Assembly: GCF_004087835.1 (NCBI RefSeq)
Contig: NZ_CP035119.1
Location: 1,612,001 to 1,676,000 of the forward strand
Origin: Halorussus pelagicus
GTDB taxonomy: Archaea > Halobacteriota > Halobacteria > Halobacteriales > Haladaptataceae
Direction: 5' to 3'
Length of the DNA: 64,000 nt
This document shows, piece by piece, positions 51,256-61,120 of this stretch. Position numbers and translations under genes: made by a program. The notes below the pieces were generated by a model. The model was given only the letters and a program-made list of their open reading frames with translations. It was not told where the DNA came from and searched no databases. Each line of letters begins with the position of its first letter. Positions within the stretch are counted from its first letter, which is position 1.

Positions 51256-54048
51256 ATGAGCGAACTCGAAGCGGAGTACCGCCTCGATTATTTCGAGGAG
51301 GAGGGATTCGTCAGGAAGGAGTGTACCGAGTGCGGTGACTTCTTCTGGACGCGCGACCCCGACCGAACGACGTGCGGCGAACCGCCCTGCGAGACCTACC
51401 AGTTCATCGACGACCCCGGATTCGCCGAGGAGTACACCCTCGAAGAGATGCGCGAGGCGTTCCTCTCGTTCTTCGAGGAGAACGACCACGAGCGCATCGA
51501 CCCCTATCCCGTGGCCGCGAACCGTTGGCGCGACGACGTGCTACTCACGCAGGCGTCAATCTACGACTTCCAGCCGCTCGTCACCTCCGGCGAGACGCCG
51601 CCGCCCGCGAATCCGCTGACGATTAGCCAGCCCTGCATCCGGATGCAGGACATCGACAACGTGGGCAAGACGGGCCGACACACGATGGCCTTCGAGATGA
51701 TGGCCCACCACGCGTTTAACGCCCGCGAGGACCTCGAAGACCCCGACCAGTACGCCTATCAGGGCGAGGTCTACTGGAAGGACGAGACGGTCCAGTATTG
51801 CGACGAGTTCTTCGAGTCGATGGGCGCGGACTTGGACGAAATCACGTACATCGAGGACCCGTGGGTCGGCGGCGGCAACGCCGGACCCGCCATCGAGGTC
51901 ATCTACAAGGGCGCGGAACTTGCCACGCTGGTCTTCATGTCGATGGAGCAGGACCCCGACGGCGACTACGAGATGAAGGACGGCAACCGGTACTCCAAGA
52001 TGGACACCTACATCGTGGACACCGGTTACGGTCTCGAACGCTGGACGTGGATGTCGCAGGGCACGCCGACCGTCTACGAGGCGATATACCCCGAGATGAT
52101 TTCGTTCCTCAAGGAGAACGCGGGCATCGACCACTCCGAGGAGGAAGAGACGCTCGTCCACCGCGCGTCGAAACTGGCGGGCCACATGGACATCGACGAG
52201 GCCGAGGATATGGAGGCCGCCCGCGACAACATCGCTCGCGAGTTGGACGTTTCGACCGCGGAGTTAGAGACCCTGCTCGAACCCCTCGAAGACATCTACG
52301 CCATCGCGGACCACTGCCGGACGCTGGCGTACATGCTCGGCGACGGCATCGTCCCGAGCAACGTCGGCACGGGCTATCTCGCCCGGATGGTTCTCCGGCG
52401 GACCAAGCGCCTCTGTGACAGCGTCGGCGTGGACGCGCCGCTCGACGAACTCGTAGACATGCAGGCCGAGCGACTGGAGTACGAGAACCGCGACACGGTT
52501 CGGGACATCGTTCGTACCGAGGTCGAGAAGTACCGCGAGACGCTCGAACAGGGCGGTCGCCGGGTCGAACGGCTCGCCGAGGAGTACGCCGAAAAGGGCG
52601 ACCCGATTCCGACCGACGAACTGGTCGAACTCTACGACTCCCACGGCATCCAACCGGACATGGTCGAGGAGATCGCCGCGGAGTTCGGGACCGGCGTCGA
52701 GGTACCCGACGACTTCTACAGCGTCGTCGCCTCCCGCCACGACTCCGGGCAGGCCGTCGAGGAAGAGGAGGAGACCGACGACAGACTCGCCGACCTGCCG
52801 GAGACCGAGCGCCAGTTCTACGAGGACCAGTACGGCACCGACTTCGAGGCCGTCGTCCTCGACGTGTTCGAGCGCGAGGACGAGGACGGTGAGACGATGT
52901 ACGATATCGTTCTCGACCAGACGATGTTCTACCCCGAAGGCGGCGGCCAACCCGCCGACCACGGGACCCTGACCACCGACGAGGCGAGCGTGAAGGTCAG
53001 CGACGTGCAGACTGAAAACGGCGTCATCCTCCACCGGACCGACGAACCGGTCGGTAAGGGCGACATCGTCCGCGGGAAGATAGACCGCGCGCGTCGCCGT
53101 CGGTTGATGCGCCACCACACCGCGACCCACCTCGTCGTCCACGCGGCCCGCGAGGTGTTGGGCGACCACATCCGGCAGGCGGGTGCCCAGAAGGGCATCG
53201 ATAGCTCGCGCATCGACGTGCGCCACTACGACCGCATCGACCGCGAGACCCGCGAGGAGATAGAGATGGTCGCCAACGAACTCGTGATGGAAAACACGTC
53301 GGTCCAACAGGAGTGGCCCAACCGCCACGAGGCCGAAGAGGAGTACGGCTTCGATCTCTATCAGGGCGGCATCCCCGCGGGCCAGAACATCCGACTCATT
53401 CACGTCTCCGAGGACGTGCAGGCCTGCGGCGGCACCCACGTCCGGCGCACGGGCGACGTGGGCACCATCAAGATTCTGAACACCGAGCGCGTGCAGGACG
53501 GCGTCGAACGCCTCACCTTCGCGGCGGGCGAGGCCGCCATCGAGGCGACCCAGCGCACCGAGCGAGCGCTGTCCGACGCCGCGGACGTGCTGGACGTGGT
53601 TCCCGAGGAGGTCCCCGAGACCGCCGAACGGTTCTTCGAGGAGTGGAAGGGCCGCGGCAAGCAGATAGAGGACCTCAAAGAGCAACTCGCCGAGGCCCGC
53701 GCCTCCGGCGGCGGAGGCGGCGAGGAGGTCGAAGTCGGCGACGCGACCGCGGTGGTCCAGCGCCTCGACGGCGACATGGACGAACTCCGAGCGACCGCCA
53801 ACGCGCTCGTCGAGGAGGGCAAAATCGCGGTCATCGGAAGCGGCGCGGACGGCGCGACCTTCGTCGTCGCGGTGCCTGACGGCATCGGCGTCAACGCTGG
53901 CGAAGTGGTCGGCGAACTCGCGCGAAAGGTCGGCGGCGGGGGCGGCGGCCCGCCGGACTTCGCGCAGGGCGGCGGCCCGGACGCCGAGAAACTGGACGAC
54001 GCGCTGGAGGAGGCCCCGGACGTGCTGAAGCAGGTCGCCAACGTCTGA
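51256..54048 (+). CDS. alaS: Alanyl-tRNA synthetase
   Basis: The 930-residue class II synthetase charges tRNA-Ala. The N-terminus has an archaeal zinc module with C23, C26, C40 and C45. The catalytic core contains [20 protein letters not shown] (motif 2 region) and [11 protein letters not shown] (motif 3). The editing domain shows [10 protein letters not shown] (H621 and H625) and [13 protein letters not shown] (C724, H728), which clear Ser- and Gly-tRNA-Ala. A coiled-coil and C-Ala dimer domain ends the protein, with a Gly-rich stretch ([16 protein letters not shown]). Length is normal for archaeal AlaRS. Confidence 0.96.
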
Positions 54049-54191
54049 GAGGCCGGAAGCCTGACTTTCGGTGATGTCGCAGAATCGGCTCGGTCGGTGG
54101 GTCCGTCACGGATTGTTACGCATCACCGCATCACTAATTACGCGATACTCTGAAGTGAGACGAGCCGGAACCGTTCCAACGGAGTCAAACC

Positions 54192-54356
54192 GTGACGAGC
54201 GACCAGTCCTCGCTACGCGAATCCGGAGACTCACCGCTTGATACCGACGAACGCCGGTCGTCCGACGACGCCGACGCGATGGAACCGATTCCGACGCCCG
54301 ACGCCGCGGAGGAGATTGACCTCGAAGACGTTTTGAGCGCGTTCTACGCCGACTGA
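54192..54356 (+). CDS. Small acidic protein (54 aa), GTG start
   Basis: This short frame encodes a 54-residue acidic protein starting VTSDQSSLRESGDSPLDTDE and ending LEDVLSAFYAD. Third positions are GC-rich and composition is haloarchaeal. A GGAG motif stands 9 nt upstream of the GTG. The C-terminal EEIDLEDVLSAFYAD is a predicted amphipathic helix. It is followed, 7 nt after the stop, by a perfect 14-bp hairpin. I do not recognise a family. Confidence is moderate because short frames can arise by chance. Confidence 0.5.
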   Translation: MTSDQSSLRESGDSPLDTDERRSSDDADAMEPIPTPDAAEEIDLEDVLSAFYAD

Positions 54357-54362
54357 GCGCCC

Positions 54363-54393
54363 GGAGCGCGTCGGTCGGCGACCGACGCGCTCC
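54363..54393. terminator. Perfect 14-bp stem-loop after the small acidic ORF
   Basis: GGAGCGCGTCGGTC and its exact reverse complement flank GGC. It lies just after the small gene. As no T-run follows directly, it may be an RNA stability or processing structure instead of a terminator. Confidence 0.7.
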
Positions 54394-54415
54394 CGCGAGT
54401 TACCTGTCGGACAGC

Positions 54416-54436
54416 CACCGCGTCGGTGACGCGGTG
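54416..54436. repeat. Second perfect stem-loop (9 bp)
   Basis: CACCGCGTC and GACGCGGTG flank GGT, followed by TTTC. With the hairpin 22 nt upstream it makes a tandem structured region of about 75 nt. Confidence 0.65.
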
Positions 54437-54616
54437 TTTCTCGCTGATGGTCCACCGTGGCTACGGGTCGCACTCTTCGAGGCAGACCTCCGATTTCAGT
54501 CGATTACGCACGAAATCTGAGTCGGTGTCGAGCGTGTCTTCACAGGGGTAAAACGCCCGTTCCAGTCAATAAACCAGCTAATCTGAACAATCCCTGACCT
54601 GAATGCAAAATCTTTT

Positions 54617-54634
54617 GTTTAGGGCTACCTAAAC
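54617..54634. promoter_or_regulatory. Iron-box palindrome upstream of the siderophore ABC ATPase
   Basis: GTTTAGG-GCTA-CCTAAAC is a perfect palindrome with 7-bp arms. It shares the TTTAGG-N4-CCTAAA core with four other sites in this locus. It lies beside an AT-rich TATA candidate (TCTTTTGTTTA) and 13 nt before the leader ORF. The likely binder is a DtxR/Idr/SirR-type metal-dependent repressor. Confidence 0.75.
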
Positions 54635-54646
54635 TCTCGCTTATTC

Positions 54647-54685
54647 ATGACCGACGGGACGACAAAACACGGTGGTGCCCGATGA
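54647..54685 (+). CDS. Possible 12-aa leader ORF coupled to the ABC ATPase
   Basis: ATG 54647 reads MTDGTTKHGGAR and stops in an ATGA overlap with the ATPase start at 54682. The start is where a leaderless transcript from the iron-box promoter would begin. A product is not proven; its value may be translational coupling. Confidence 0.35.
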   Translation: MTDGTTKHGGAR

Positions 54686-55557
54686 CCCCGGAAATCGACT
54701 CGGAAGACCGCGAGACCGGACAACGGGCCGAAAGACAGGTCTTCGACGGCGGGGACTCCGACCGGAAGTCAACCTCGGCGAGCGTGCTCCACGCCGAAGA
54801 CCTCGCACTCGGATATCCGGGTACCGACGAACCCGTCGTAGAGTGCGACCGCATCGACGTGCCCGAGGGAGAGATTACGGCGCTCGTCGGCCCGAACGGG
54901 TCGGGCAAGAGTACGATGCTGAAAGCGCTCTCGAATCACCTCGACCCCGACCGCGGAACGGTCGTCCTCGACGGCCGCGAGATTCACCAGTACGGCGACA
55001 AGGAACTGGCCCGCGAACTCGGCCTGCTCTCTCAGGAGAACGACGCGCCGGGGAGCATCACGGTCGAAGACCTCGTGTATCACGGTCGGTACCCCCATCG
55101 AGAGTTCTTCGACGCGGTAAGCGAGGCAGACCACGAAGCCGTCGAGCGCGCCATCGAACTCGCGGGCGTCGAGGACCTCCGCGACGAGGAGGTCGGTAGC
55201 CTGAGCGGCGGCCAGAAGCAACTCGCGTGGATTGCGATGGTCCTCGCGCAGGACACCGACGTGCTCCTGTTGGACGAACCGACGACGTTCCTCGACCTCC
55301 ACCACCAACTTCGCGTGATGGAGGTCGTCCGGACGCTCAACGAGGAGGAGAACGTCACGGTCGCGGTTGTCCTCCACGACATCGCGCAGGCCGCGCGCTT
55401 CGCCGACAACCTCGTCGCGCTCCACGACGGCGAACCCTACGACTGGGGACCGCCCCGCGAAGTCGTCACCGAGCAACTGCTCGCGGACGTGTTCGAGGTG
55501 GACGCCGCGGTGACGTACACGCCCGACCCCGAAATCGTCCCCAAGCGGTCGCTGTAG
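54682..55557 (+). CDS. Siderophore-type ABC transporter ATP-binding protein (FecE/FhuC-like)
   Basis: The 291-residue protein has an acidic N-terminal extension (1-35) and an ATPase of the siderophore/B12 importer class: Walker A GPNGSGKST (70-78), Q-loop in GLLSQENDAP, signature LSGGQ (174-178), Walker B VLLLDEP (194-200) and VVLHDIAQAARFADNLVALH. It would power import of ferric siderophore with a FecCD-type permease, which is not in the window. Iron control is shown by the palindrome at 54617. It is convergent with the exporter gene. Confidence 0.88.
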   Translation: MTPEIDSEDRETGQRAERQVFDGGDSDRKSTSASVLHAEDLALGYPGTDEPVVECDRIDVPEGEITALVGPNGSGKSTMLKALSNHLDPDRGTVVLDGREIHQYGDKELARELGLLSQENDAPGSITVEDLVYHGRYPHREFFDAVSEADHEAVERAIELAGVEDLRDEEVGSLSGGQKQLAWIAMVLAQDTDVLLLDEPTTFLDLHHQLRVMEVVRTLNEEENVTVAVVLHDIAQAARFADNLVALHDGEPYDWGPPREVVTEQLLADVFEVDAAVTYTPDPEIVPKRSL

Positions 55558-55667
55558 CGCGGTCGCTCGATTCTCCGACGTAAGGATTCTCGGTCTCGGT
55601 CGTCCCAAAAACTGTCTTCTGGACGTTTCCTCCCGAAGGGTGTTCCGTCGAAGTCGCCTCGACTCCG

Positions 55668-57551
55668 CTACGGTCCCGCGAGGTCCGGCGGCGACTCGAC
55701 GTTTCGACCCGCCTGCACCGACCACAGCGTCGCGTACAGTCCGTCCCGTTCGAGGAGCGCGTCGTGGTCGCCTCGCTCGACGATCTCTCCGTCGTCCAAG
55801 ACGAGAATTTCGTCGGCGTCCCTGACCGTCGAGAGGCGGTGTGCGATGACGACGGCCGTCCGGTCGGCGGTGATCTCGTCCAGCGAGCGCTGAATCGAGA
55901 GTTCGGTCTCGGTGTCAACGCTCGCGGTCGCCTCGTCCAGAACCAGAATTTCGGGGTCCTGTAGGATGACTCGGGCGAGCGCGATTCGCTGGCGCTGGCC
56001 GCCTGAGAGTTTGACGCCGCGCTCGCCGACCTGCGTCTCGTACCCGTCCGGGAGACTCTCGATGAACTCGTGGGCTTCGGCGGCGCGGGCAGCGTCCCGG
56101 ACCGCTTGGTCGCTCGCGTCGAACTGCCCGTATCTGATGTTGTCCGCGATGGTGCCGTCGAAGAGGAACGTCTCTTGGCTGACGTAGCCGACGGCGTCTC
56201 TGAGACTGTCGAGGGTCACGTCGCCGACCTCGGACCCGTCAACGCGGACCGCGCCGCCGTCGGCTTCGTAGAGTCGCACGAGGAGTTTCGCGGCGGTCGA
56301 TTTTCCGGACCCGCTCGGACCGACGATGGCGACCTTCTGGCCCGGTTCGACGCCGAACGTCACGTCTCGAAGCACTTGCTCGTCGTCGTACGCGAACGAA
56401 ACGCCGTCGTACTCGATTCGACCGTCCACCGATTCGAGGGCGGTCGCTGACGGCGACTCTCGAACGCCGACCGGAGCGTCCAGTAGGCCGCCGATTCGCG
56501 CGGCCGACGCCTTCGCGTTCTCGTACCAATCGACGATGTTCGAGAGTTGCGCGAGCGGCGTGACGAGTCGCTGGGTGAGCAGGATGAACACCACGAAGTC
56601 GCCCACGGTGAGTTCGCCGCCGAACGGGAACGGCGGACCGGAGAACACCCAGAGACCGCCGACGACGAACGTCACGAACAGGAGCAGTCCGGTCAGGAGT
56701 CGCATCCCCGGCCGGTAGAAGACGCTCAGTCTGATGGCGTCCATCGCGGCGTCGAACAGGTCCTGCGAGACGCGCTCGACTTGCTCGCGCTCGTACTCCT
56801 CGGTCGTGGCCGTCTTGACCAACTGGCTTCCGCTGAGTGCGTTCTCCAGTCTCGTGTTCAGGTTCCCGACTTCGGTCCGCCACGTCGCGTAGCGCGGTTC
56901 GACCGCGCGGACGAACCACCACGTAAACCCGGCCAACAGCGGGACGACGGCGAGGGTGATCGCCGCGAGCTGTCGGTTGAGATACACCAACAGCCCCGTG
57001 ATGCCGAGGACCATCACGCCGATTCTGACGCTCTCCCGGAGCGCGTTGTCGAGGAACAGCTCCAGATTCGTCGTGTCGTTGTTGAGTATCGACATGAGTT
57101 CGCCCGTCTCGGCGTCGTCGAAGAACGACATATCGAGGTCAGTGAGCTTCTCGTAGGCGTCGGTCCGGATGTCGAGCATGACATCGTGGGCGAAGTAGTT
57201 CATGGCGAAGCCCCGCACCCACGCCGACAGCGCCGAGAGGACGAGCGCGCCGCCGACGAGCGTCGCCGAAAGTCGGAACTGGCCGTGGGCGCTCGTCGGG
57301 AGCCACGACTGAGGGACGAGCGGGAGCGCATAGGCCGCCTGCTGGTTGAACACGGCGTCGATGGTCGTCCCGAGGACGAACGGAACGACCAGTGCCGCGC
57401 CGTGCGAGACGACGCTGGCGAGCAACCCGACCGCGAGCCAGCGGGCCTTCGGTCGGCCGTAGCGTACGCAGAGGCGACTCAGCGGCCGCGAGACGTTTGC
57501 CTGCTCGAAATCGAGGGGCGAGCCGTCCTCGTCGCCGTAGTCAGAACTCAT
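55668..57551 (-). CDS. Exporter-type ABC protein (fused membrane and ATPase domains)
   Basis: The 627-residue half-transporter has six helices (about 40-340) and a C-terminal ATPase: Walker [10 protein letters not shown] (near 409-417), Q-loop YVSQETFLFDGTIADNIRYG, signature KLSGGQRQRIALARVIL, Walker B ILVLDEATASVD and an AHRLSTV H-loop. It works as a homodimer of the MsbA/LmrA kind. Its place downstream of the substrate-binding gene in a siderophore locus makes secretion of the made siderophore the most likely role; a drug or lipid substrate cannot be excluded. No separate promoter is evident in the 105-bp gap. Confidence 0.88.
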   Translation of the reverse strand: MSSDYGDEDGSPLDFEQANVSRPLSRLCVRYGRPKARWLAVGLLASVVSHGAALVVPFVLGTTIDAVFNQQAAYALPLVPQSWLPTSAHGQFRLSATLVGGALVLSALSAWVRGFAMNYFAHDVMLDIRTDAYEKLTDLDMSFFDDAETGELMSILNNDTTNLELFLDNALRESVRIGVMVLGITGLLVYLNRQLAAITLAVVPLLAGFTWWFVRAVEPRYATWRTEVGNLNTRLENALSGSQLVKTATTEEYEREQVERVSQDLFDAAMDAIRLSVFYRPGMRLLTGLLLFVTFVVGGLWVFSGPPFPFGGELTVGDFVVFILLTQRLVTPLAQLSNIVDWYENAKASAARIGGLLDAPVGVRESPSATALESVDGRIEYDGVSFAYDDEQVLRDVTFGVEPGQKVAIVGPSGSGKSTAAKLLVRLYEADGGAVRVDGSEVGDVTLDSLRDAVGYVSQETFLFDGTIADNIRYGQFDASDQAVRDAARAAEAHEFIESLPDGYETQVGERGVKLSGGQRQRIALARVILQDPEILVLDEATASVDTETELSIQRSLDEITADRTAVVIAHRLSTVRDADEILVLDDGEIVERGDHDALLERDGLYATLWSVQAGRNVESPPDLAGP

Positions 57552-57656
57552 GTGGCGATTTCCATCGGCATCGGTTCGAGCGCGAGTCTCGCGGCGAAAA
57601 CGACGACTCGCCGGGAGGGGTCGCGTCCGAGCGTGAGAACTGCATCGTCCTCTCCG

Positions 57657-58871
57657 TTAGATGTCGCCGTTGACGATGTCGGCGACGCGCTGGCGGTCGA
57701 ACAACTCGTTGTCTCCCGTCACCGCGCCGAACTCGTCGGGGTAGAGTTGCTTGGCCGCGCGCTCGGTCAGGAAGAGGTTGTGAATCGGTCCCTGACGGAG
57801 GTAGCCGCCGCGGTAGACCCGGCCGTTCTGGACGGCCGTTAGCTCCTTGCCGACGGGGTGGTCCTCCATGTAGCCGAGGACGGTATCGCGGAATTCCGAG
57901 GCGGATTTGCCCTCGTGGCCCCGAATCAACAGCACGTCCGGGTCGATTTCGAGCAGGTTCTCGTAGTCGAGTTCGCTCCGGTTTTCCGTGCTAAGATTCT
58001 CGATGCCGGTACCCGACAGCGCGTCAGCGACGCCGAGGTCCCGCCACTGTTTCTTGCTCGTGCCCTTGTCGGTGAGCCGATACGGCGAGAACGATTCGGG
58101 TTCGTCGGTGCCCTCGTAGGTGAGGAACACGCTCGGGCGCTCGTCCGCTGGCGGCATCCGGGACTGAATCTTCCCGACGAACTCCTCGTGAAGCCGCTCG
58201 AACGCCTCGTAGCGCTCTCGCTCCTGAAACAGTTCGGCCATCTTCTCGAACGCCTGATAGAGCGTGTAGAACCGGTAGTCGTGCCAACTGTCGGACCGCC
58301 GGAAAATCATGTTTCCGAGGAACGGCCCGACCTTGCCGCTGATTTCCTCGATGTCGGACTGGCTCCAGTCGAACCAGTTTCTCAGCATCCCGGTGTCGAT
58401 GACGTGAACGTCGCTGTCCATCTCGTAGAACAGCTCTTTCGACATGTCCGACTCGACCAAATCGTTCGACGCGATGCGCTCGTCGTCAACGCTCACGCCG
58501 GGCAACTCGTCGTACACGTCGGTGTAGTATTCGCCGGACTGTCCGATGCCGGTCATCCCGTCGGCCTGCCCCAGCGCGACGCCCATGTCGGCGTAGTCTC
58601 CGCCGTAGGGAACCCACGTCTCCGGAACCGACTCGAACGTCACGGCTCCGGTCGGTGCCATCGACACGGAGTAACTGGTGTCCTCGGTCGTCGTCTCCGG
58701 TTCGGTCGTCGTCTGCGTCGCGGTCGTCTCGCTCGCACCGGTCGTGGTGGACTCGTCCTCAGAGTCTGTCGTGCCGCTACAGCCCGCGAGCAGCCCGCTC
58801 CCGACGAGAGCGCCGTACGTCAGGTACTGTCGTCGCGTCGATACGTGTTTTCCGTCTCTTTCTCGGGACAT
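57657..58871 (-). CDS. Siderophore/iron ABC substrate-binding lipoprotein (BtuF/FepB-like)
   Basis: The 404-residue protein has a Tat signal (TRRQYLTYGALVGSGLLAGC, lipidated C31), a Thr/Glu-rich stalk (about 32-65) and a two-lobed periplasmic-binding fold of class III with TWVPYGGDYADMGVALGQAD, a long connecting helix and DPDVLLIRGHEGKSASEFRD. It captures ferric siderophore outside the membrane. The iron-box at 58875-58892 sits right against its start codon, so transcription is probably iron-repressed and leaderless. It is followed by the exporter gene after 105 bp. Confidence 0.87.
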   Translation of the reverse strand: MSRERDGKHVSTRRQYLTYGALVGSGLLAGCSGTTDSEDESTTTGASETTATQTTTEPETTTEDTSYSVSMAPTGAVTFESVPETWVPYGGDYADMGVALGQADGMTGIGQSGEYYTDVYDELPGVSVDDERIASNDLVESDMSKELFYEMDSDVHVIDTGMLRNWFDWSQSDIEEISGKVGPFLGNMIFRRSDSWHDYRFYTLYQAFEKMAELFQERERYEAFERLHEEFVGKIQSRMPPADERPSVFLTYEGTDEPESFSPYRLTDKGTSKKQWRDLGVADALSGTGIENLSTENRSELDYENLLEIDPDVLLIRGHEGKSASEFRDTVLGYMEDHPVGKELTAVQNGRVYRGGYLRQGPIHNLFLTERAAKQLYPDEFGAVTGDNELFDRQRVADIVNGDI

Positions 58872-58874
58872 ATC

Positions 58875-58892
58875 TTTTAGGCCGACCTAAAA
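58875..58892. promoter_or_regulatory. Iron-box palindrome at the substrate-binding gene promoter
   Basis: TTTTAGG-CCGA-CCTAAAA is a perfect palindrome with 7-bp arms, 3 nt upstream of the start codon and downstream of an AT-rich TATA candidate (TTTTCAATT on the minus strand). Confidence 0.75.
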
Positions 58893-58960
58893 ATTGAAAA
58901 GCGTTCCGATTGAGGGCGAACGCTTCCGAAACAGACGCTCGCAGGTCGGTGCGGTCGAAC

Positions 58961-60811
58961 TCACTCCTCGCCGACTTCGTGGAGCGGGTTGGCAATCGAG
59001 CCGTGGCTCCGGACTTTCGGTCGCGTGCTGGTGTCGTCGTAGCCGTAATCGACCATCCGGTTGCGGTTGAGACAGTAGTTGGTGAACCGCGGCTTGAACA
59101 GGTCGAACAGCTCGAAGCGCTCGGACAGTTCCGGGAACCGGTCGTGGTACGACTCGACGGCCGACCGGACCTGCCGCCAGAACCGCGTCTCGTCGTAGCC
59201 GTGGTGGCGCGCCAGCAGGTCGGCGACGTACCGGAAGACGCCGACGAACAGCGTGCCGACGATGCGGACCGCGAGGGCGGGCGGCGGACTCCGGTGGAGG
59301 ATGTGGTGTTTGTACCGGTCGTCGTCGCGCAGGTCCGTCGGGAGGTGTTCGAGCAGTTCGGGGAAGTCCCGGTCCACGATGCCCACCTCGTCCACGAAGT
59401 CCTTGATGGCGACCCGCACCGGCAGTCCGTCCTCGTGGACGAGGACGACGTTCGTGCCGTGGGGCATGAACACCACGCCGTACTTGTAGAGGTAGTGGAG
59501 AATCGGTTCGAGCAGGACCGACAGCAGTTCGTCGAGCCACGCCTCCAGCGACAGGCCCGAGCGCTCCACGAGTTTCGAGACGACCGGCGTCCCGTCGAAG
59601 TCCTCGTGGTAGAGCGCCGCGAGCGTCAGCGGTTCGCCCGACGGGAGGAGCGACGTGACGCTCTCGCGCCAGACGCAGGCCAGCAGTTCGTGGTACTGAT
59701 ACGGCGCGTTCTCTAACTGGCTGAGTTTCGGATGCTCGTAGTTGACGCTGGCGACCTCGCCGGGGAGCAACACCCCGAGGTCGTCGCGCAGGAACGCGTC
59801 GTCGTCTCGAACCGATTTGACGAACTCGGTCACGCCCGGCGCGGCCTCGGCCTGCTCGCCCAAGATGCCCCGGTAGACGTTCGTGTTCAACACCCGTATC
59901 GGCAGTTTTACGTGGTGTTTGTCCGAGTTCGTGACGTTCGAGAAGGTCCGTATCGACTGCTGTGGGAGGTAGTCGTCCGATGCGGTTCCGAGCGGAACGA
60001 GCGCGTCCGTGGCGATGTCCTCGGCGAACAGTTGGACGATGCTGTCGTTCCACTGCCAGTCGTGAACCGGCAGGAGGTGGTAGTTCGCCGGGTCGAGTCC
60101 GTCGTCGGCGAGTCGGTCCTGGAACCGGTCGTAGTCGTCGCCGAGTTCCGCCCGGAGGAACCGCTCGCGGTCGAGTCCGCCGACCGACGAGAACACCGCC
60201 CTGTCCTTGCGCGCCGCGACCCACGACAACTGTTGGGATTGCTTGGACTCGGGAGCGTACTGGCGGTAGTCCTCGTAGTCGAACCCGACCCGGCCCTTGT
60301 TGTAGGTGTACCACGGGTGGCCCTCCATCTCCCCCTCGATGCTCGCGTAGGGGAGCGAGAGAAGCGATTCGTCGGTTCGCTCGGTCTTTCGGGCGCGGAT
60401 GTGGGCGTTCGCGACGAGCGTGTTGTCGAACTCTCGGACGAGGTGGGCGGCGGTCGATTCGGCGACCCCGATGTACTCGCGGGCGTCGAGCAGGAACTGA
60501 ACCGGGTCGGTGGCGCGACGCCAGTCCCCGCGGTTCTCGCGGCGATGTATCGACTCGCGCCGAACTCGATAACTGTCGAGGGGCCGCGATTGGGCGTCGA
60601 ACCGATACTCCACCTCGTCGCTCAATCGGAGGTGATAGCGGTTCCACCTGTCGTCGGGTTCGTCGTCGTCGGCCGGGACGGTATCGATCTTTGCGGGGAC
60701 GAGTACGTCCTCGAACATGAACTCCGCGAACACTTTCTGGAGGAGGTCTTTCTGCACGTCCGTCCAGATTTCCTCGCGGAGCGCGTCCGTAACTCCATCA
60801 ACGCGGTCCAT
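58961..60811 (-). CDS. NIS siderophore synthetase, IucA/IucC family (first)
   Basis: The 616-residue enzyme couples carboxylic acids with amines or alcohols using ATP to build non-peptide (NIS) siderophores. Family signs: GHPWYTYNKGRVGFDYEDYR and YAPESKQSQQ, VHDWQWNDS, SIRTFSNVTNSDKHHVKLPI and LNTNVYRGI, HELLACVWRESVTSLLPSGE, FMPHGTNVVLVHEDGLPVRV and IKDFVDEVG, and a C-terminal ANPL. I chose ATG 60811 because a GGAGG lies 6 nt ahead and because the 60844 start would prepend a run of seven Arg. A 25-residue leader ORF ends 1 nt before it. The gene runs towards the binding-protein gene, which has its own promoter. Confidence 0.88.
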   Translation of the reverse strand: MDRVDGVTDALREEIWTDVQKDLLQKVFAEFMFEDVLVPAKIDTVPADDDEPDDRWNRYHLRLSDEVEYRFDAQSRPLDSYRVRRESIHRRENRGDWRRATDPVQFLLDAREYIGVAESTAAHLVREFDNTLVANAHIRARKTERTDESLLSLPYASIEGEMEGHPWYTYNKGRVGFDYEDYRQYAPESKQSQQLSWVAARKDRAVFSSVGGLDRERFLRAELGDDYDRFQDRLADDGLDPANYHLLPVHDWQWNDSIVQLFAEDIATDALVPLGTASDDYLPQQSIRTFSNVTNSDKHHVKLPIRVLNTNVYRGILGEQAEAAPGVTEFVKSVRDDDAFLRDDLGVLLPGEVASVNYEHPKLSQLENAPYQYHELLACVWRESVTSLLPSGEPLTLAALYHEDFDGTPVVSKLVERSGLSLEAWLDELLSVLLEPILHYLYKYGVVFMPHGTNVVLVHEDGLPVRVAIKDFVDEVGIVDRDFPELLEHLPTDLRDDDRYKHHILHRSPPPALAVRIVGTLFVGVFRYVADLLARHHGYDETRFWRQVRSAVESYHDRFPELSERFELFDLFKPRFTNYCLNRNRMVDYGYDDTSTRPKVRSHGSIANPLHEVGEE

Positions 60812-60894: not shown

Positions 60895-60912
60895 TTTTTG
60901 GCTAGCCTAAAA
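60895..60912. promoter_or_regulatory. Iron-box palindrome for the first NIS synthetase
   Basis: TTTTTGG-CTAG-CCTAAAA matches the locus consensus with one arm mismatch. It sits between a TATATA core and the leader ATG on the minus strand. Confidence 0.7.
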
Positions 60913-61068: not shown

Positions 61069-61086
61069 ATTTAGGCTGTCCTAAAT
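61069..61086. promoter_or_regulatory. Iron-box palindrome upstream of the second NIS operon's TATA
   Basis: ATTTAGG-CTGT-CCTAAAT has perfect 7-bp arms and lies 8 bp before the TATA element, where repressor could overlap TFB contacts. Confidence 0.72.
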
Positions 61087-61102: not shown

Positions 61103-61120
61103 TTTTAGGCTAGCCTAAAG
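61103..61120. promoter_or_regulatory. Iron-box palindrome downstream of the second NIS operon's TATA
   Basis: TTTTAGG-CTAG-CCTAAAG keeps a perfect 16-bp TTTAGGCTAGCCTAAA core. With the site at 61069 it brackets the TATA element. Confidence 0.75.

Follow-up and report, generated by a model that had tools for sequence, protein, structure and literature searches.

In the haloarchaeon Haloferax volcanii, 503 transcript ends are reported to have a hairpin upstream, and a stem that was tested ended 59% of transcripts (PMC7237163). Archaeal IS6-type insertion sequences are represented by ISH29 of Halobacterium salinarum NRC-34001 and ISH15 of Haloarcula marismortui, and the review of the family argues for taking its archaeal members out of IS6/IS26 (PMC6807381). 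We compared with these systems, and with the short acidic haloarchaeal proteins that have no known domain, a locus in a 64,000-nt stretch of the Halorussus pelagicus genome (hereafter, the window), in which a small open reading frame (ORF) is followed by 2 stem-loops. The initial annotation had treated the ORF and both stem-loops as one unit, either a small gene with a strong 3' structure or a structured RNA. Our analysis instead points to 3 unrelated things side by side, namely, a small gene, a hairpin in the spacer behind it, and a transposon-remnant hairpin at a deletion joint. We hold the anatomy of the locus with high confidence and consider the explanation as a whole probable.

The ORF spans 54 codons on the plus strand (54192–54356) and has, as annotated, a GTG start and a Shine-Dalgarno-like GGAG (54181–54184, plus strand). 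Orthologues occupy the same place in 4 other Halorussus genomes (G002, G006, G007, and G015), between alaS and a convergent gene for a YihY/BrkB-type membrane protein. Among named organisms, the nearest relatives of alaS itself also belong to Halorussus species. The GTG start is retained in all 5 members and GGAG in 4 of them, and the upstream region is partly common. Downstream of alaS, the members begin with MT.D (often LRES) and end with FYAD, and although their lengths range from 43 to 97 aa (54, 81, 65, 97, and 43), every length change keeps the frame. Because of the synteny, the conserved ends, and the in-frame length changes, we count the ORF as a gene, and on these comparative grounds the small-gene half of the earlier proposal appears to be right. 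The single-protein search with the 54-aa sequence gave matches in 29 of 59 genomes at E values up to 1, most of them due to chance; synteny, and then a profile of the 5 members, sorted these out, the profile finding exactly these 5 of the 28 genomes of the family, which are the same 5 members from which it was built. The scans for LRESG and FYAD used motifs of our own definition, so that diverged copies of the gene would be missed.

The gene is predicted to encode a very acidic protein of 54 residues (17 D/E and 3 K/R; pI 4.05), translated from the Shine-Dalgarno sequence and GTG, which, from its composition, is probably disordered. No Pfam family matched the window protein, no NCBIfam family matched any of the 5 members, and a literature search on the gene returned nothing relevant among the texts it covered. 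In its acidity and lack of a family match, the protein resembles other short, acidic proteins of haloarchaea in which no domain is known; it differs from them in the motifs at its two ends, MT.D and FYAD, and in the fixed place of its gene between alaS and YihY.

In all 4 relatives, the small gene faces the YihY/BrkB gene (the G006 protein matches PF03631) across gaps of 7, 48, 64, and 77 nt, and YihY lies convergently downstream of alaS in 13 of the 17 regions examined. The window carries at this place, on the minus strand, the last six codons of the gene (RWLSDR) and the stop codon (54400–54420), with 22 of the 26 bases over 54400–54425 identical to G009. The sole other YihY match above noise in the same genome is a 40% paralogue approximately 158 kb away. 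The window locus has thus lost its YihY orthologue, with only this stump left.

The region from 54416 to 54594 (plus strand) matches intact copies of an IS6-type insertion sequence similar to ISH29 and ISH15. From 54416 onward, a 140-bp alignment with a copy in the window's own genome shows 78% identity, and a 142-bp alignment with 4 copies in G005, a genome of the same genus, shows 80%. The intact G005 element, the ends of which are related to those of ISH29 and ISH15, encodes a transposase of 211 aa that is 64% to 68% identical to the ISH29/ISH15 transposases over the full length, and annotations of relatives on plasmids read IS6, ISH29, or ISH15. Two intact copies in the own genome match DDE_Tnp_IS240 (PF13610; E values of 7e-7 and 3.5e-10), and the broken piece of the window aligns to them. 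Unlike intact ISH29 and ISH15, the window copy has lost its left half, its transposase frame is broken, and it is internally deleted by roughly 80 nt, as estimated by eye. Intact elements end in GGCACTGTTCAGATAAG and CAGCTAATCTGAACAATGCC; the right end is preserved in the window at 54575–54594 in 19 of 20 bases, and the left end is absent. A candidate target-site duplication, a direct repeat some 9 bp long, is seen in one intact G005 copy, again as judged by eye.

The second stem-loop of the initial annotation, a perfect 9-bp hairpin 22 nt past the first, is present at 54416–54436 (plus strand), with arms at 54416–54424 and 54428–54436 and a 3-nt loop. Its letters are transposase codons (HRVGDAV), and for 28 nt starting at 54416 the window does not differ from the G005 elements, in which GAGAAACACCGCGTC-GGT-GACGCGGTGTTTCTC forms a perfect palindrome of 15 bp. 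Hairpin 2 is accordingly the surviving inner part of a coding palindrome, cut from 15 to 9 bp by the deletion joint with YihY, and represents transposase coding sequence at the edge of a decayed insertion sequence. Together with its flanks, it folds no better than shuffled sequences (z -1.3; 21 of 200 shuffles fold as well or better).

In the order of events that we infer, the small gene originally faced a convergent YihY/BrkB gene, and an insertion sequence of the ISH29/ISH15 type landed within this neighbor or close to it. A deletion would then have taken all of YihY but its last six codons, together with the left half of the element, joining the two at a CCACCG stretch. Since both YihY and the element carry CCACCG at the joint, a deletion through short homology is a natural reading.

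Directly behind the insertion-sequence scar, where relatives have YihY, starts an iron uptake locus (54682–60811) encoding an ABC ATPase, an ABC exporter, a binding protein, and a siderophore synthetase of the IucA/IucC-FhuF type. Because it starts at the scar, in the place of YihY, the locus may have been acquired or moved here. The palindrome TTTAGGnnnnCCTAAA occurs 5 times, always in the iron locus (54618–54633, 58876–58891, 60896–60911, 61070–61085, and 61104–61119); 4 copies are exact and 1 has a single mismatch, whereas the mean in shuffled sequences was 0.31 and none of 100 shuffles contained 5. The palindrome appears to resemble operators of the DtxR/IdeR type, and from this likeness, an iron-dependent repressor probably controls the locus.

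The first stem-loop is a perfect 14-bp hairpin with a 3-nt loop at 54363–54393 (arms 54363–54376 and 54380–54393; 15 pairs with a 1-nt loop), as originally described, except that the gap behind the ORF measures 6 nt after the stop codon rather than 7. It is centered in the 43-nt spacer between the stop codons of the small gene and of the YihY stump, six nt from each, and is assigned to neither strand. Its predicted folding energy is -33.7 kcal/mol, far better than that of shuffles on both the plus (z -4.8) and the minus strand (z -4.1), and every other perfect stem in the window is shorter. The 25-bp core has a single site in the 3.49-Mb genome, allowing up to 3 mismatches; a repeat family is thereby rejected, the other matches being short hits to GC-rich words. 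The 4 orthologous spacers hold no comparable stem, and hence no compensatory stem changes were found in the relatives. An imperfect inverted repeat can be seen in the G007 spacer, but its sequence is a different one, and the fold is no better than that of shuffles (z -0.6).

The initial annotation had called stems of this length rare by chance. For hairpin 1, this is borne out by 6 dinucleotide shuffles of the window, which contained no stem of 12 bp or more; a genomic sample of 864 kb (40 stretches of 20 kb plus the window) nevertheless contained 9 perfect stems of at least 14 bp (approximately one per 96 kb), alongside 38 of at least 12 bp and 162 of at least 9 bp. In this genome, stems of 14 bp are thus rare but neither unique nor exceptional, and the statement does not extend to hairpin 2, because 9-bp stems are common and ordinary. 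The abundance of long stems, about 36 of at least 14 bp to be expected per genome, bears on the reading that hairpin 1 has no function and is a surplus inverted repeat of a GC-rich genome, left in a freely drifting spacer. That several of the 9 sampled stems fall inside predicted genes, and that hairpin 1 is not conserved, agrees with such an origin; the absence of stems of 12 bp or more from the shuffles, the exactly central position between two stop codons, and the enrichment of stems in convergent spacers do not. We give this reading nearly an even chance.

The enrichment was measured with gene calls from a simple codon-usage caller rather than the annotation, a caller that missed the small ORF, so that hairpin 1 itself was tallied as same-strand. 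Between convergent genes, 33.4 kb of spacer contained 15 stems of 9 bp or longer (mean of 1.25 in shuffles), a higher density than in spacers between divergent genes (7 in 52.2 kb; P 0.005) or in genes (115 in 701 kb; P 0.0009), whereas the difference from same-strand spacers (23 in 84.9 kb) was not significant (P 0.09). There was no peak of stems directly behind gene ends in the genome sample.

If hairpin 1 has any role, a hairpin-type 3' end is plausibly the most likely one, serving the mRNA of the small gene and formerly perhaps those of both convergent genes. Nothing resembling a terminator site was detected at hairpin 1: the first T4 behind the ORF is at 54613, and for the other strand, there is no A4 at 54000–54500. 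An intrinsic terminator with a U-tract is thus ruled out. The 3'-end role is suggested by where the hairpin lies, by the absence of any T-run ahead of 54613, and by the general enrichment of stems between convergent genes. A stem without a T-run behind a haloarchaeal gene is also reminiscent of the hairpin-type transcript ends of Haloferax volcanii (PMC7237163), with the differences that the tested stem (S12) sits in a coding region and that the ends there were mapped on transcripts, whereas hairpin 1 is known from its sequence. A literature search on bidirectional hairpin terminators returned nothing relevant in the material it reached. Against a 3'-end role count the lack of conservation and of a U-tract, a stem density between convergent genes not significantly above that of same-strand spacers, and the missing peak at gene ends. 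We regard the role as possible, at somewhat less than an even chance. Of the proposed small gene with a strong 3' structure, the structure is present, as hairpin 1 adjoins the 3' end of the gene, but it has no counterpart in the spacers of the 4 orthologues.

As a perfect palindrome, hairpin 1 could alternatively be an operator or another DNA site. We consider this very improbable, given that the core is found once in the genome, that the hairpin lies behind stop codons, and that the iron locus has a repeated palindrome of its own. An even more doubtful alternative, which we judge scarcely probable at all, is that the ORF and the two stems together make up a structured RNA, or act as a riboregulator on the neighboring iron locus. 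The start of that locus at 54682 would suit a riboregulator, and the joint fold of 54357–54445 is indeed better than that of shuffles (z -3.5). However, a permissive Rfam search yielded 4 matches, all below their gathering scores and none close to them; hairpin 2 is transposase coding sequence; the orthologous spacers lack the stem; and the convergent neighbor of the gene in the 4 relatives is YihY rather than an iron gene. The structured-RNA reading is by these results already largely refuted, and the unit of an ORF and two stem-loops dissolves with hairpin 2 belonging to the decayed element.

The palindrome of which hairpin 2 is a remnant, GAGAAACA...TGTTTCTC, recurs in haloarchaeal IS6-type transposase genes; in the window, it corresponds to 54416–54443. 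We analyzed its pairing first in 30 and later in 85 haloarchaeal genes for transposases of this group, all dereplicated. It was the best-paired site of the gene in both sets and by far so across the 85 genes, with 76% of cells paired, compared with 51% at the next separate site and 53% under a codon-usage null that ignores the relatedness of the genes. When synonymous codons were shuffled within columns, the excess shrank to 76.1% versus 74.5% (rank 48 of 1,794 by z), and in the 30-gene scan, 2 other sites had higher z values. The codons are indeed kept at the palindrome (AAA in 83 of 84 and TTT in 78 of 81 genes), yet the stretch as a whole ranks only 58 of 187 windows in codon conservation, which is not unusual, and F18, E171, and K178 keep their codons as strictly. 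The pairing excess thus comes mostly from kept codons, and covariation is weak. Because the excess shrinks under the within-column shuffle, other sites score higher, and conservation is ordinary, we do not claim a functional palindrome; that it limits or directs transposition, be it as a hairpin of the transposase mRNA or as a palindromic site in the DNA, is unlikely, and with sequences that are related to one another, the palindrome is a testable lead rather than a demonstration. The main text of the family review (PMC6807381) contains no words beginning with palindrom or hairpin.

Most of what appeared as a single unit reflects the usual erosion of genomes. Where a deletion meets the scar of an insertion sequence, the stem left behind can resemble a designed 3' structure, and hairpin 2 should not be annotated as an RNA structure. 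To the gene repertoire, the locus adds one unnamed small protein gene, confined to part of the genus Halorussus.
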